Part shown: piece after piece, positions 2,160-7,208 of the stretch | How positions within the stretch are numbered: position 1 is the stretch's first letter | How the letters are laid out: the number at the start of each line of letters is the position of its first letter | Source: Conexibacter sp. | GTDB lineage: Bacteria > Actinomycetota > Thermoleophilia > Solirubrobacterales > Solirubrobacteraceae | Reading direction: 5' to 3' | NCBI GenBank assembly: GCA_025964295.1 | Contig: JAOPZD010000502.1 | Span: 1 to 7,888 of the forward strand | DNA length: 7,888 nucleotides | Notes under the pieces: generated by a model | The model's database searches: none | Told to the model about the DNA's origin: nothing | The model's input: only the letters and a program-made list of their open reading frames with translations | Translations under genes and position numbers: made by a program

Positions 2160-3491
2160 ATGCCCCCCGTGAAGAAGAAGACGCTGTACGGCGGCGAGAC
2201 CAAGAAGGCCGTCGAGAACTTCCCGATCTCCGGCGAGACCGTCCCGCTCTCGGTGATCCGCTGGCTCGGCCGCATCAAGGGCACCGCCGCCCTGGTCAAC
2301 GCCGACCTCGGCAACCTCGACAAGCAGCTCGCGCAGGAGATCGCCGCGGCCGGCGCCGCGATCGCCGCCGGCGAGCACGACAGCCAGTTCCCGATCGACG
2401 TCTTCCAAACCGGCTCGGGCACGTCGTCGAACATGAACACCAACGAGGTCATCTCGGCGCTGACCGACGGCAAGGCGCATCCCAATGACCATGTGAACTT
2501 CGGCCAGTCGTCCAACGACGTCTTCCCGAGCGCCGTGCACCTCGCCGCGCTCGACGAGGCCACCAACCGGCTCCTGCCGGCGCTCAAGCAGCTCGAGCGG
2601 TCCTTCGACCGCAAGGCCAAGAAGTTCAAGGACGTGGTCAAGTCCGGCCGCACGCACCTGATGGACGCGGTGCCGGTCACGCTCGGCGCGGAGTTCGGCG
2701 GCTACGCGTCGCAGATGCGCCTGGGTCAGGAGCGGATCGCCAGCGCGCTGGTGCACGTCGGGCAGATCCCGCTGGGCGGGACGGCGACGGGCACGGGCCT
2801 CAACACGCATCCGAAGTTCGCGGCGGAGGTGCGCAAGCGCCTGGCGCGCGATGCCAAGTTGAAGCTGATCGCGCCGCCGGCGGATCCGTTCGAGGCCCAG
2901 GCCAACCGCGACGCGCTGGTCGAGCTGAGCGGCGCGCTGAAGGTCGTCGCCGTGTCGCTGACGAAGATCGCGCAGGACATCGCGCTGATGGGCTCGGGCC
3001 CGCGCGCGGGCATCGGCGAGATCTTCCTGCCCGAGCTCCAGAAGGGCTCCTCGATCATGCCGGGCAAGGTCAACCCGGTCCTGCCCGAGGTCGTCCTGCA
3101 GGTGTCCGCGCAGGTCATCGGCAACGACACCGCCATCACCATCGGCGGCATGCAGGGCCAGTTCGAGCTCAACGTCCGCATCCCGCTGATCGCTCGCAAC
3201 CTGCTGCAGTCGATCCACCTGCTGTCGACGACGGCGGTGGCCTTCGCCGAGAAGTGCGTGGACGGCATCGAGGTCAACAAGGCCGGCACCAAGGCCTCGG
3301 CGGAGGGGACGCTGGCGACGGCCACCGCCTTGAACGGGGCCATCGGCTACGACGCGGCGGCGGCGATCGTCAAGGAGGCGTCCTCGTCGGGCCGTCCCCT
3401 GCGCGAGGTGGCCCTGGAGGCCGGCGTCGACGCCAAGCTCTACGACGAGACGATCAACCTGCGCCGGATCGCGGCGGGCAACCAGGCCTGA
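2160..3491 (+). CDS. fumC: class II fumarate hydratase (fumarase C)
   Basis: This 443-residue enzyme of the aspartase/fumarase superfamily should catalyse the reversible hydration of fumarate to L-malate in the TCA cycle, as a cytoplasmic homotetramer. The order of motifs is diagnostic: FQTGSGTSSNMNTNEV (82-97), HPND and QSSND (107-120), SGRTHLMDAVPVTLG (162-176, with the active-site T165-H166), GGTATGTGLNTHP (206-218) and the signature GSSIMPGKVNP (296-306; catalytic Ser297, Lys303, Asn305). The C-terminal fumarase domain occupies about 375-443. GSSIMPGKVNP followed by VLPEVVLQV could suggest aspartate ammonia-lyase, but FELNV and the FQTGSGTSSNMNTNEVI block match what I recall of mycobacterial fumarase, so fumarase is preferred. 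The N-terminus lacks the usual D-x-M-G-x-x-x-V-P segment of about 20 residues. ATG at 2160 is chosen; GTG at 2169 is an alternative, because the nearest AGGG (2154-2157) sits only two bases before the ATG. It follows the esterase stop by 11 bases. Confidence 0.93.
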   Translation: MPPVKKKTLYGGETKKAVENFPISGETVPLSVIRWLGRIKGTAALVNADLGNLDKQLAQEIAAAGAAIAAGEHDSQFPIDVFQTGSGTSSNMNTNEVISALTDGKAHPNDHVNFGQSSNDVFPSAVHLAALDEATNRLLPALKQLERSFDRKAKKFKDVVKSGRTHLMDAVPVTLGAEFGGYASQMRLGQERIASALVHVGQIPLGGTATGTGLNTHPKFAAEVRKRLARDAKLKLIAPPADPFEAQANRDALVELSGALKVVAVSLTKIAQDIALMGSGPRAGIGEIFLPELQKGSSIMPGKVNPVLPEVVLQVSAQVIGNDTAITIGGMQGQFELNVRIPLIARNLLQSIHLLSTTAVAFAEKCVDGIEVNKAGTKASAEGTLATATALNGAIGYDAAAAIVKEASSSGRPLREVALEAGVDAKLYDETINLRRIAAGNQA

Positions 3492-3495
3492 GACG

Positions 3496-3513
3496 GGTCC
3501 GTGTCGTCTCGTG
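3496..3513 (+). repeat. 18-base repeat unit, left copy of an inverted pair
   Basis: GGTCCGTGTCGTCTCGTG here matches 17 of 18 bases with the reverse complement of 4458-4475 and 16 of 18 with 4427-4444. The inner 12 bases also recur inverted at 3527-3538 as the other arm of the local hairpin. The first and last copies face each other across the nuclease gene like terminal inverted repeats about 980 bases apart. I saw no further copy of the core elsewhere in the window. Confidence 0.7.
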
Positions 3514-3538
3514 GTGAATAGTTCACCACGAGACGACA
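3502..3538. terminator. 17-bp perfect hairpin between convergent genes; probable bidirectional terminator and left repeat of the cassette
   Basis: TGTCGTCTCGTGGTGAA (3502-3518) and its exact reverse complement TTCACCACGAGACGACA (3522-3538) flank a three-base loop, TAG. The hairpin starts 10 bases after the fumarase stop and ends 4 bases before the stop of the minus-strand nuclease gene, a position that suits termination of both transcripts. No T-tract follows on either strand, so an intrinsic terminator would have to be of the tract-less kind often proposed for actinobacteria. The same stem-base sequence recurs in the hairpin at 4427-4475, so it may also, or instead, be one end of a repeat-bounded unit. 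Confidence 0.75.
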
Positions 3539-3542
3539 TGCA

Positions 3543-4451
3543 TCATCCGAGCAGGTGGCGGATGCGCTGCGCGACCGCCTCGGGCGTCCGCGTCACCTGT
3601 TTGTAGGTGAAGCGGACGACGGTGTAGCCGGCGAGCGTGAGCTGCTGGTCGCGCCGGCGGTCGCGCTCGAAGGCCGACGGCGTCGAGTGGTAGGCGTAGC
3701 CGTCGGTCTCGACGATGATCCTGGCGGCAGGCCAGAGGAAGTCCACCAACAAACCGGCGACCCGGGCGTTCGCGTGCGGTGCGGGCAGGTGGTGGTCGTC
3801 GCAGAGCTGGAGCAGCGCGACCTCGAGGGTGCTCCGAAGGTCGGCGGCGCCCGTGCCGCGCATGGTGTCGAGGAGCCGCCGCAGCGCCGGCGCGCCCGGC
3901 TGCCGCGGATGCTCCCGCAGGCACCGACGGACACCGACGAGGTCGAAGAGGCCGAGGCGATCCATCCGCCCGATGACGTCCTCGATCGCCCTGGGTCGCA
4001 GCCGGGGCGCGAGGTCCAGGAGCGTTCGGGCGGGCGTGGTGGTCGGTATGCCGTCAGTGAGCGTGCGCTCCCAGGCGCGGAGGGTGCCGACGCGGTGGAG
4101 GTGGATGCGCTTCGGGTCGGGTGCGCGGCCGGACGTCGAAGGCCGCGTGACGTGGATGCGGCGGCCACGGAGCGGCAGCAGGTCCCACAGCGCCGCCGCG
4201 TCGAAGTGGCTGAGCACCGCGCCCTCCCCGGACGCCAGCACCGCCGCCAACCACGAGCCCTCGCGCCGCAGCTGACGATGGCCGACCGCATAGACGCCGG
4301 GGAAGAGCGGCAGCAGGCGCCGAGCGCGGACGCGCGAGGCGATCTGCTTGGACGAGAGGCCGGCGGCGAGCAGCTCCGCGCGCGTCACCACGCCGTGATG
4401 ACGGTCGGCGAGCGCCGCGATGACGTGGTCTGTGTCGTCTGGTGTCCCCAT
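3543..4451 (-). CDS. AbiEi-like winged-helix domain fused to a DUF559 Vsr-like nuclease domain
   Basis: This 302-residue protein has two recognisable parts. Residues 8-58 (HVIAALADRHHGVVTRAELLAAG through LLPLFPGVYAVGH) match the AbiEi-type winged-helix domain of type IV toxin-antitoxin antitoxins. Residues about 205-302 match DUF559, a relative of Vsr/PD-(D/E)xK nucleases: Glu210, LLVDFLW (Asp237), IIVETDGYAYH (Glu248, Asp250, His255), FERDRRRDQQL (Arg263-Asp264, Arg267-Asp268) and VVRFT (Arg280). All the acidic and basic positions expected for nuclease chemistry look intact. The middle part (about 75-200) is the usual linker region of such proteins. No AbiEii nucleotidyltransferase toxin lies beside it, so it stands alone. 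The ATG at 4449-4451 has no visible Shine-Dalgarno and lies in the loop of a long hairpin; GTG at 4458-4460 is an alternative start. The gene is convergent with fumC and lies 59 bases downstream of the GH2 gene. Its function, whether defence, regulation or selfish spread, is not established. Confidence 0.85.
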   Translation of the reverse strand: MGTPDDTDHVIAALADRHHGVVTRAELLAAGLSSKQIASRVRARRLLPLFPGVYAVGHRQLRREGSWLAAVLASGEGAVLSHFDAAALWDLLPLRGRRIHVTRPSTSGRAPDPKRIHLHRVGTLRAWERTLTDGIPTTTPARTLLDLAPRLRPRAIEDVIGRMDRLGLFDLVGVRRCLREHPRQPGAPALRRLLDTMRGTGAADLRSTLEVALLQLCDDHHLPAPHANARVAGLLVDFLWPAARIIVETDGYAYHSTPSAFERDRRRDQQLTLAGYTVVRFTYKQVTRTPEAVAQRIRHLLG

Positions 4452-4475
4452 ATGGGACACGAGGCGACACGGACC
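4427..4475. repeat. 22-bp imperfect hairpin over the nuclease start codon; right repeat of the cassette
   Basis: The arms at 4427-4448 and 4454-4475 pair with 19 Watson-Crick pairs, two T-G wobbles (4431/4471 and 4438/4464) and one G-G mismatch (4441/4461), around a five-base loop (4449-4453). The ATG of the nuclease gene on the minus strand occupies loop bases 4451-4449, so the first codons form one arm. In mRNA this would expose the AUG in a loop but hold its surroundings in a strong stem. The hairpin also lies 35 bases past the GH2 stop and could terminate or attenuate read-through from that operon. Its stem base is the same sequence as that of the 3502-3538 hairpin. Binding by the AbiEi-like domain would be a plausible autoregulatory function, by analogy with AbiEi antitoxins that bind inverted repeats in their own promoter. 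Confidence 0.75.
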
Positions 4476-4510
4476 GGAAGTTCGCCCCCGGCAGGTCGTG
4501 CCGCGGACGC

Positions 4511-6409
4511 TCAGCCGAGGCCGGTGCCGAGGCGCGAGAAGGCCCGCGCCACCGCAGCGGCCGCCGGCTTCGGCCGGCCGGCGTAGTCGAAGAGGCCCTT
4601 GGTGTTCAGTCCCCGCTCGACGACGATGTCGGGCACGACGGACTTGATGGAGCCGCCGGCGAAGGTGGGCGCGACGCCGAAGTCGCGGAGGTTCCACACC
4701 AACATGCCGGAGAGCTGGGGCAGGGCGCGGTAGGTCGCGATGTGGCGGCGCAGGAGCCAGGACTGGTAGGCGTAGCCGCCCGGCAGGTCGGTCGGGTTGG
4801 CGGCGTTGGCCTCGGCGCCGAACTCGCTGACGAGCAGGACCTTGCGCGGGAACAGCCGCGTGAAGCCCACCACCGTGGAGTGCAGGCGGGCGGCGATCTG
4901 CGACCGCGTCTCGTCCGCCCCCTCGTACCACCCGATGTAGTTCGTCAGCGCGACGGCGTCGACGTCGCGGTAGATCGCGCCCGGGACGTGCGGCGGGTGC
5001 GTGCCCCAGAGGTCGACGGCGACCAGGCGGCCCGGGTCGCGGCGGTGCAGCTCGCGGGCCATGTCGCGGACGTAGGCGACCTGCGAGGCGTCGTGGCCGT
5101 TGCCGGCGACCTCGTTGACGAGGTTCCAGGCGATCACCGACGGGTGCAGCTGCTCCTGGCGCACCGACACGCGGACGCGCTCGCGGGCGGCGTGGGCCAG
5201 CGCGGGCGTCGAGGAGGTCCAGGCGCCGGGCGCGTCGACGGGGCCGACGCCCTGCCAGACCATGATCCCGGCGCGGTCCAGCCGCTCCAGCAGCGGTGCC
5301 GACAACGCGTGCTGCGCGCGCGTCGCGTTGGCGCCGATAGCCTTCAGGTCGCGGACGATCGCGTCCATGTCGGCGGGCGACAGCGCGTCGCCGTCGCCTG
5401 CGGCGTCCTCGTGGATCGAGGCGCCGTGCAGCCGCAGGCGCTGGCCGTTGAGCAGCAGCTCGCGGCCGCGCCGTGAGACCTCGCGCAGGCCGACGTGGTC
5501 GTCCCAGGCACCGCCGCCGGGCGCGGAGAGCTTCAAGGCGTACAACGACGGCGAGCCCGGTGCCCACAGCGCGGGCCGGGCGACCACCACGCGCGCCGCG
5601 ACCCGCCGCGTCTCGCCCGGACCCAGATGGACGGGCGGGAACACGACGCGCGTGACGCGGCCGGCGTGGGTGAGGCTGCCGCGGACCTGGAGGTCGCGTG
5701 ACCCCCGCTCGCGGTTGTGCACCAAGACGCCGAGGTCGACCACGGCGGTGGCGCCGAAGAGGCGCGTCCGCAGCGACGGGGACTCCAGCTCCGAGCGCGC
5801 CAGCGGCCGCAGCGTCACCTCGCGGTTGATCCCGCCGTAGTTGAACCACGTGCGGTGCCAGCCGTCGCGCTTCTGGCGCGTCGGATAGCGGTAGTCGGCG
5901 CGCACGACGAGCCGGTGCGCGACGCCCTCGCGCAGCCGCAGCGTGAACGCGAACGGCAGGTAGGCGCCCGTGTGGCTGCCCAGCAGGCGGCCGTCGAGCC
6001 AGACCTCGGCCACGTGGTGGACCGACTCGAAGCGCAGCGCGTAGGAGCCGGTGTGCGGCGCGGTCAGCGTCGTGCGGTACCAGGTGATCCCGCCGCGGTA
6101 GGCCGCGACGCCGGCCGCGCCCGTCACCTTCGCCGCGTTGGCGACCTCCGGCACGCTCGTCGGCGTGCCCGGGAAATGCCCCGCGGCCCAGCCGGCCGGC
6201 TCGCCCGCGTCGTCCGGATCGTCGGCGACCACCCACGGCCCCGCGACGGCCAGCCGCCCGGAGGGTCCGCCGAGCGCCGCCGGCGGGACGAGCGCCTCGC
6301 CGACCGGCCGCGATCCGATCGCGCCGAGCACGACCGCCGAGGCCCCGCCGATCAGCATCGCCACCGCCAGGGCAGCCGCCACCGCGAGCCTGGTGCTCGT
6401 GCGCCGCAT
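4511..6409 (-). CDS. exported glycoside hydrolase family 2 enzyme (beta-glucuronidase/beta-galactosidase-like)
   Basis: This 632-residue protein begins with MRRTSTRLAV, a hydrophobic run (8-32) and an ASA cleavage-like site near residue 25, so it is exported or membrane-anchored. Three GH2 domains follow: a sugar-binding jelly roll (about 50-205, including WYRTTL, VAEVWLDGRLLGSHTGAYLPF and WFNYGGINREV), an immunoglobulin-like domain (about 206-300) and a TIM barrel (about 305-620). Catalytic residues are visible: acid/base Glu433 in AWNLVNEVAGNG and nucleophile Glu529 in LLVSEFGAEA. The barrel ends with MLVWNLRDF and NTKGLFDYAGRPKPAA, typical of the family. It should hydrolyse a beta-linked glycoside by the retaining mechanism. 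Its size is closer to beta-glucuronidases than to the roughly 1,000-residue beta-galactosidases, but specificity cannot be read from these motifs. The ATG lies 5 bases after the cyclase stop, indicating translational coupling; no clear Shine-Dalgarno is seen. Glycan degradation outside the cell is the likely job. Confidence 0.9.
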   Translation of the reverse strand: MRRTSTRLAVAAALAVAMLIGGASAVVLGAIGSRPVGEALVPPAALGGPSGRLAVAGPWVVADDPDDAGEPAGWAAGHFPGTPTSVPEVANAAKVTGAAGVAAYRGGITWYRTTLTAPHTGSYALRFESVHHVAEVWLDGRLLGSHTGAYLPFAFTLRLREGVAHRLVVRADYRYPTRQKRDGWHRTWFNYGGINREVTLRPLARSELESPSLRTRLFGATAVVDLGVLVHNRERGSRDLQVRGSLTHAGRVTRVVFPPVHLGPGETRRVAARVVVARPALWAPGSPSLYALKLSAPGGGAWDDHVGLREVSRRGRELLLNGQRLRLHGASIHEDAAGDGDALSPADMDAIVRDLKAIGANATRAQHALSAPLLERLDRAGIMVWQGVGPVDAPGAWTSSTPALAHAARERVRVSVRQEQLHPSVIAWNLVNEVAGNGHDASQVAYVRDMARELHRRDPGRLVAVDLWGTHPPHVPGAIYRDVDAVALTNYIGWYEGADETRSQIAARLHSTVVGFTRLFPRKVLLVSEFGAEANAANPTDLPGGYAYQSWLLRRHIATYRALPQLSGMLVWNLRDFGVAPTFAGGSIKSVVPDIVVERGLNTKGLFDYAGRPKPAAAAVARAFSRLGTGLG

Positions 6410-6414
6410 CCGAA

Positions 6415-7179
6415 TCAGTCACCGATGATGGCAACCGCGCGCGCGGGCGCCGCCGATCCCCCGACGAGGCGCAGCGGGAAGACCGAGACGGTGAAGCCCG
6501 TCGGCGGCAGCTCGCGCAGGCCGCAGAGCCGCTCGATCTGGCAGTACTCGAGGTCGGCCTGGTGCGCGGCCCAGAAGATCCCGGGCTCGCCGCGCTCCTT
6601 GGCCGCGGCCGCCTGGAGGTGCAGCGGCGCGTCCCAGCCCCAGGCGTCGATGCCCATCACGCGCACGCCGTGCTCGTGCAGCCAGCGGGTCGCCTCGACC
6701 GTCACGCCCGGCCCGCGGGCCATGTAGTCCAACTCGTCGAGGAACTCGTCGCGGTCGGTGCGGACCAGGACGATGTCGCCCGGCGACAGGACGTGCCCAG
6801 CGGCGTCCAGCGCCGCGGCCGCCTCGTCCACCGTCATCGCCTCGCCGTCGGCCTTGTGCGACATGTCGAGCACCACGCCCGGCCCGAAGAACCAGTCCAG
6901 CGGCAGCTCGTCGATCCGCCGCGCGGGCTTGCCGCCGATCGTCGAGTTGTAGTGGTAGGGCGCGTCGACGTGCGTCGAGTTGTGCGTCCCCAGCCGGGTG
7001 AACGTCTCGACCGCCCAGCCCTCGCCGTCGCGCAGCAGCTCGGGCCCCACGCCGAGCATCGCCTCGATCGTGCGAGCGCCCTCCGCGTGGTCGGAGAACT
7101 CGACGTCGGTGCGCAGGATGTCGGGCAGCTGCGCCGGCGACGGCGTGATGGGCGCGCTGAGATCCACGAAGCGGGGCAT
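6415..7179 (-). CDS. cyclase-family metal-dependent hydrolase (kynurenine formamidase-like fold)
   Basis: This 254-residue cytoplasmic protein belongs to the putative cyclase family (PF04199), which includes KynB-type arylformamidase and isatin hydrolase and binds Zn or Mn. The N-terminal RFVDLSAPITP (3-13) and the metal-binding motif H-x-x-T-H-x-D-x-P-x-H at 66-76 (His66, His70, Asp72, His76) are complete. Further family features are LSPGDIVLVRTD (131-142), VRVMGIDAWGWDAP (172-185), AAHQADLEYCQIERL (204-218) and the end segment LPPTGFTVSVFPLRLVGGSAAPARAVAI (224-251). Length is normal for the family. Members open or form amide or lactone-like bonds, but the substrate here is unknown. It sits between an aldehyde dehydrogenase gene and a GH2 gene on the same strand, which suggests a catabolic operon rather than tryptophan breakdown; no kynureninase or dioxygenase is in view. 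The start ATG is inside a 12-bp stem (7174-7208), so translation may be restricted or coupled to the gene upstream. Confidence 0.88.
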   Translation of the reverse strand: MPRFVDLSAPITPSPAQLPDILRTDVEFSDHAEGARTIEAMLGVGPELLRDGEGWAVETFTRLGTHNSTHVDAPYHYNSTIGGKPARRIDELPLDWFFGPGVVLDMSHKADGEAMTVDEAAAALDAAGHVLSPGDIVLVRTDRDEFLDELDYMARGPGVTVEATRWLHEHGVRVMGIDAWGWDAPLHLQAAAAKERGEPGIFWAAHQADLEYCQIERLCGLRELPPTGFTVSVFPLRLVGGSAAPARAVAIIGD

Positions 7180-7208
7180 CGGCGCAGCCGACTTCGGCGC
7201 CGATGCCC
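7174..7208 (-). promoter_or_regulatory. 12-bp hairpin burying the cyclase start codon
   Basis: Bases 7174-7185 (GGGCATCGGCGC) and 7197-7208 (GCGCCGATGCCC) are perfect inverted repeats with an 11-base loop. In the minus-strand transcript the AUG of the cyclase (7179-7177) lies within the 3' arm, where pairing would hide it from ribosomes. Ribosomes finishing the dehydrogenase gene stop about 26 bases upstream of the stem, and could approach or re-initiate there. Control of translation is inferred. Partial termination of the dehydrogenase transcript is the other reading, although no T-tract follows. Confidence 0.5.

Follow-up and report, generated by a model that had tools for sequence, protein, structure and literature searches.

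The predicted nuclease gene of this Conexibacter contig and the two palindromes that bracket it very probably belong together, and we think it fairly probable that the encoded AbiEi-DUF559 protein recognizes and spreads such palindromes, forming a REP/RAYT-like system with a Vsr-type nuclease as the partner. The association of gene and palindromes is strong; from it we infer recognition, cutting, and spreading. Features of the window, that is, the whole 7,888-nt stretch of DNA that was analyzed, are as follows.

2160 to 3491, plus strand: fumC, the P3-side neighbor (Pfam); context outside the element, adjoining the nuclease gene in five relatives too
3496 to 3540, no strand: P3, a palindrome just 3' of the nuclease stop codon, with a 17-bp perfect stem (3502-3518/3522-3538)
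3543 to 4451, minus strand: gene for the AbiEi_4 plus DUF559/MTES_1575 protein, 302 aa (Pfam, AlphaFold2 model, PDB comparison); start codon ATG at 4451-4449, stop codon at 3545-3543
4427 to 4475, no strand: P5, a palindrome whose center is the start codon and whose arm toward the gene is coding sequence
4481 to 4489, minus strand: G-rich motif GGGGGCGAA, upstream of P5
4511 to 6409, minus strand: GH2 family gene, the P5-side neighbor (Pfam); context outside the element

The nuclease gene is the single gene between fumC and the GH2 gene in the window. The initial annotation, made from the sequence, had read its product as a predicted nuclease with a DNA-binding domain, and Pfam and fold comparison agree. 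Pfam places AbiEi_4 at residues 11-56 and DUF559/MTES_1575 at about residues 228-299 of the 302-aa protein, and nothing else. In comparisons of an AlphaFold2 model with PDB structures, the N-terminal fold matches AbiEi and the nuclease part is Vsr/I-Bth0305I-like, with the EDxHD/Vsr-type catalytic fold. We describe the protein as an AbiEi-type fold joined to a predicted Vsr/I-Bth0305I-like nuclease domain. A named match to the protein is from Baekduia alba (74% identity), and the window looks to be from a Baekduia-like member of the Solirubrobacterales. Among 7998 candidates scored there were 2074 relatives at E <= 0.001, and those named by their sources are labeled hypothetical, DUF559, or 'very-short-patch-repair endonuclease'. 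A contig scan with a single protein query returned 38 stretches, 0 of them relatives. A family unlisted in the VIA-align table is not thereby excluded.

The repeats reported in the initial annotation are correct: the units at 3496-3513 and 4458-4475 are inverted and 17/18 identical (94%), and a third copy at 4427-4444 matches at 16/18 positions (89%). Each end was also said to form a long hairpin, and both fold far better than shuffled sequence. On the plus strand the left hairpin (3490-3545) has an MFE of -35.8 kcal/mol (z -7.4) and the right hairpin (4418-4482) one of -42.6 (z -6.0), with 0/200 shuffles folding as well in either case; on the minus strand the outcome is the same, with 0/200 shuffles as stable. 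The start codon lies at the center of P5, and therefore the 'third copy' at 4427-4444 is 5' coding sequence, part of MGTPDDTD. The gene spans from the center of P5 to just before P3, and the two palindromes have outer arms in common and different inner arms. The 13-mer arm alone is not enriched in the window (4 matches with <=3 mismatches versus 6.2 expected); the unusual feature is their arrangement, all four being parts of two hairpins that flank one gene. Promoter and terminator scans found neither, including no T-tract terminator, and an Rfam search over 3300-4700 gave a single chance match, below threshold. Elsewhere in the window, a hairpin with a perfect 12-bp stem and an 11-nt loop (7174-7208) sits at the start of the minus-strand gene at 6415-7179.

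The same layout recurs in the closest relatives: G-rich motif, ATG-centered palindrome, gene, stop, second palindrome. The spacing between the G-rich motif (GGGGGGCGA-like) and the start-codon palindrome that follows it is fairly constant; the motif precedes 45/115 related genes, versus 8/332 control windows. The palindrome sequence varies between gene copies, and the two ends of one copy are alike. Outer arms read GTGTCG in the window and in B. alba (L121) and AAGTCG in genome G009 (L125), and L128, L004, L101, and L105 have further, different sequences; in several lineages a different palindrome sequence matches at both gene ends.

The related-gene set comprised 115 genes with both flanks, from 120 unique genes among the matches listed. 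In a paired-flank test, a gene's own 5' and 3' flanks exceeded 99% of mismatched pairs in 20/115 genes, of which at least three (L021, L044, L115) have simple direct repeats and lack an evident 5' palindrome; the window's own pair scores 20.5, above the 95% level (18.0) and below the 99% level (21.4). A separate hairpin score gave a significant 5' palindrome in 51/115 genes and a 3' palindrome in 20/115, with 7/115 for the mid-gene control. Among the 51 genes with a 5' palindrome, 26 carry an in-frame ATG at the loop, versus 4/51 for the two other frames. From these flank and hairpin counts, the full palindrome pair is a minority pattern in the sampled family that is very clear in some lineages. 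The pattern also extends to another order of Actinomycetota, where a DUF559 gene of Tsukamurella tyrosinosolvens NCTC13231 (31.5% identity) lies between two similar 41-nt palindromes:

L363:1913-1953 and L363:2908-2948: Tsukamurella tyrosinosolvens palindromes, on both sides of the distant DUF559 gene

This palindrome sequence occurs at 7 places in three records of NCTC13231, and weaker matches occur in 22 further records. Four of the seven places were read, two beside the gene and two gene-free; the gene-free ones are intergenic, one at a convergent and one at a divergent gene pair.

In the genomes of five relatives, palindromes that match those of the resident gene are scattered at gene-free sites as well: 12 gene-free copies in B. 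alba, 16 in G009, 13 in Conexibacter arvalis, and 3 each in two metagenome-assembled genomes (MAGs), G001 and G002. The counts come from three specific patterns, built after the elements had been seen. The B. alba (G005) pattern has 13 sites in that genome, one of which is the P3 of the gene at the fumC locus, and 0 in 7 others. The second pattern has 18 sites in G009 (among them both palindromes, P5 and P3, of the fumC-locus gene), 4 in G001 (including P3), 4 in G002 (including P5), and 0 in 5 other genomes. The third, from C. arvalis DSM 23288 (G030), has 15 sites there, including P5 and P3 of L105, and 0 in 7 others. Genomes scoring 0 were searched with the palindromes of other genomes, not those of their own DUF559 genes. 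Reversed-pattern controls were 0 in all three whole-palindrome searches. Dispersal of the window's palindrome in its source genome is extrapolated from these relatives. Scattering of the repeat with no link to DUF559 genes, the outcome that the initial annotation had named as counting against its proposal, was not what we found: the repeat is scattered, yet in each of the five genomes at least one DUF559-gene end belongs to the palindrome family.

Less specific searches were also made. B. alba has 35 occurrences of the short motif GTGTCGTCTNGTG (<=1 mismatch) versus 9 for the reversed control, and in four relatives the motif does not exceed the reversed control apart from small differences. 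A generic pattern, TCGYCT-N21-AGRCGA, was dropped: it also gave 8 to 11 matches in G006, G007, G008, G010, and G012 (reversed control 0 to 2), and the sequences listed for these are mostly not palindrome-like, so only sequence-specific patterns were used afterwards. Among 20 retrieved B. alba sites, 15 are palindromes and 5 are chance single arms (L243-L246, L248). In a further observation, several gene-free palindromes in B. alba (L231, L234, L239, L240), G001 (L267), and G009 (L290) are themselves enclosed symmetrically by TTCGGGGCCGAA-like arms, one on each side; this larger frame may represent another family of palindromic repeats.

Complementarity extends beyond what the searches specified. 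In C. arvalis, six pairs flanking the searched pattern keep their complementarity in 11 to 15 of the 15 copies; the one unspecified stem pair inside it does so in 10/15, as three different kinds of pair (permutation p about 0.01). In B. alba and G009 complementarity likewise runs beyond the searched pattern, and the inner arms differ between copies while remaining complementary. Using a crude codon-based gene caller, we scored the placement of 42 of 43 gene-free copies (L378 was left out): 27 lie between convergent genes, 9 between codirectional genes, and 1 between divergent genes, and 5 were called inside a gene.

These observations bear on the main rival to our explanation, that the palindromes are operators: the AbiEi-type protein would repress its own gene at P5 and act on other genes at the dispersed sites, the nuclease having some other task. 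In its favor, many copies have a P5 that spans the start codon, the N-terminal fold matches AbiEi, and AbiEi of Streptococcus agalactiae binds inverted repeats at its own promoter, according to the part of PMC7319586 consulted. Operators would, however, sit poorly with a single divergent site against 27 convergent ones, with a P3 located after the stop codon, and with inner arms that vary between copies as complementarity is maintained, and we consider this reading unlikely. The placement of the gene-free copies instead resembles that of REPs, which are described in the consulted part of PMC3733652 as enzyme-bracketing palindromes that are dispersed, mostly at gene ends.

The gain and loss cases examined were one loss of the gene and two palindromes without it. 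In G009, a ligase/glycerate-kinase locus is made up of the ligase, P3, the gene, P5, and the G-rich motif. The flanking genes and the G-rich motif are also found in B. alba, but there the gene is absent and exactly one palindrome, sharing the outer arms, is present. By sequence comparison, this arrangement is consistent with an unoccupied target or with loss of the gene from between its palindromes. B. alba also has a palindrome after an epimerase gene, and the orthologous genes of G009, G002, G001, G006, G008, and G012 have no such palindrome behind them; the neighbor on the other side is kept in G009, and several of the other genomes are without it. At an NDH locus the element is present in B. 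alba and G002. G009, G006, G008, and G012 have no palindrome there and a different next gene, and the G001 contig stops at this locus. No target-site duplication was defined.

The fumC/GH2 junction holds the gene in the window and in five relatives (L121, L125, L127, L002, L001), and the copy studied here therefore looks vertically inherited. The initial annotation had put the gene forward as a candidate for a new type of cassette that might be mobile: matched palindromes at the ends of DUF559 genes do recur, and a freely moving cassette is less supported, given the same fumC/GH2 site in five relatives. It had also pointed to gene-less orthologous loci keeping both hairpins as contrary evidence, and we found none; the B. 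alba ligase locus keeps one palindrome, and the fumC/GH2 junction of G007, which is without the gene, has one perfect-looking palindrome of unrelated sequence (L405:1801-1837) in a gap of 60-odd bp.

That unrelated hairpin at the same convergent junction is what ordinary transcription terminators at gene ends would predict, as are the strength of the hairpins and the position of P3 and most gene-free copies at gene ends. No T-tract terminator appeared in the scan, however, and P5 lies on a start codon. Moreover, the primary sequence is common within one genome and specific to that genome, a sharing that terminators do not need. We rejected plain terminators on this last ground and regard this reading as very improbable.

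Another possibility is that other machinery (a RAYT, another transposase, or recombination) spreads the palindromes and that DUF559 genes simply have a tendency to lie within them. Y1_Tnp genes were indeed found in 5 of the 9 genomes tested, those of B. alba, G009, G002, G007, and G008. Against this, no Y1_Tnp match was found in C. arvalis or in G001 (a 3.5-Mb MAG), both of which have the dispersed palindrome, and different palindrome sequences match at both gene ends in several lineages. Y1_Tnp was also unmatched in G006 and G012. The Y1_Tnp loci of B. alba and G009 have no palindrome at the threshold used, and those of G002 carry GGGGTCAGACCCC palindromes unlike the DUF559 ones (L304:2440-2484, L305:1784-1835). 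Because the Y1_Tnp loci of these three genomes have no palindromes or different ones, and Y1_Tnp is unmatched in some genomes, a RAYT is an unlikely source. We rejected it as such on the C. arvalis result and the palindrome-free loci of B. alba and G009, Y1_Tnp being the sole transposase family searched. Spread by other machinery in general seems to us improbable. Separately, the G002 GGGGTCAGACCCC palindromes fit the GGGGWSAS motif, which is reported for TIR-flanked tyrosine transposases in the consulted part of PMC3733652.

The explanation that we prefer is spread by the AbiEi-DUF559 protein itself. The AbiEi-type winged-helix part would recognize its cognate palindrome, perhaps when this is extruded or forms a single-stranded hairpin, and the Vsr/EDxHD-like nuclease part would cut there. 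The palindrome could then be copied into other intergenic sites by repair or replication. The gene would mostly be inherited vertically and could be lost between its two palindromes, one remaining, and P5, on the start codon, may also let the protein control its own expression. These data suggest an enzyme-linked repeat system of an undescribed kind; among the titles and abstract openings listed by searches of one open-licence library, none links DUF559 to palindromic repeats. A broader proposal is possible, and we advance it tentatively: REP-type palindromes may include a second class, independent of RAYTs, whose dedicated enzymes are AbiEi-DUF559 proteins. In this class a homing-endonuclease-like nuclease would recognize and spread hairpins around its own gene, with lineage-specific sequence, and the class would take in at least the Solirubrobacterales and Tsukamurella. 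DUF559 proteins related to these might then explain REPs elsewhere that have no known transposase.

If the protein is the partner of the dispersed palindromes, the large uncharacterized DUF559 family would gain a function, and REP-type systems would have arisen with an unrelated enzyme. It would also offer an approach to the puzzle, recorded in the consulted part of PMC3733652, of REPs without a dedicated transposase. The cultured C. arvalis DSM 23288 allows a direct test: it has no Y1_Tnp match, its gene carries both palindromes, and 13 copies are gene-free.

Several known systems share parts of this one. The EDxHD homing endonuclease I-Bth0305I and Vsr have the catalytic fold in common with the 302-aa protein (by predicted structure) but differ in the DNA-binding part, and no intron is involved here. 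The type IV toxin-antitoxin system AbiE has a predicted AbiEi-type DNA-binding protein in common; an AbiE operon was rejected, as no AbiEii nucleotidyltransferase toxin gene adjoins (the neighbors are fumC and the GH2 gene), and the 302-aa protein carries a fused nuclease domain. CGTC REPs are likewise dispersed palindromes, and the consulted part of PMC3733652 gives no dedicated transposase for them. The closest likeness in layout, already drawn by the initial annotation, is to REP/RAYT or TnpA-REP systems (REPtrons), and it holds: a vertically inherited enzyme gene is bracketed by matched palindromes (in 20/115 relatives by the strict paired-flank test), and the palindrome is dispersed without the gene, mostly at gene ends, in five relatives' genomes. 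The enzyme there is an HUH Y1 transposase (PF01797), whereas here it is AbiEi plus DUF559, with a Vsr-type nuclease fold; further differences are the start codon at the center of one palindrome and the low copy number, 3 to 16 gene-free copies. The system is therefore not a RAYT, the defining enzyme being absent, but its layout is RAYT-like.
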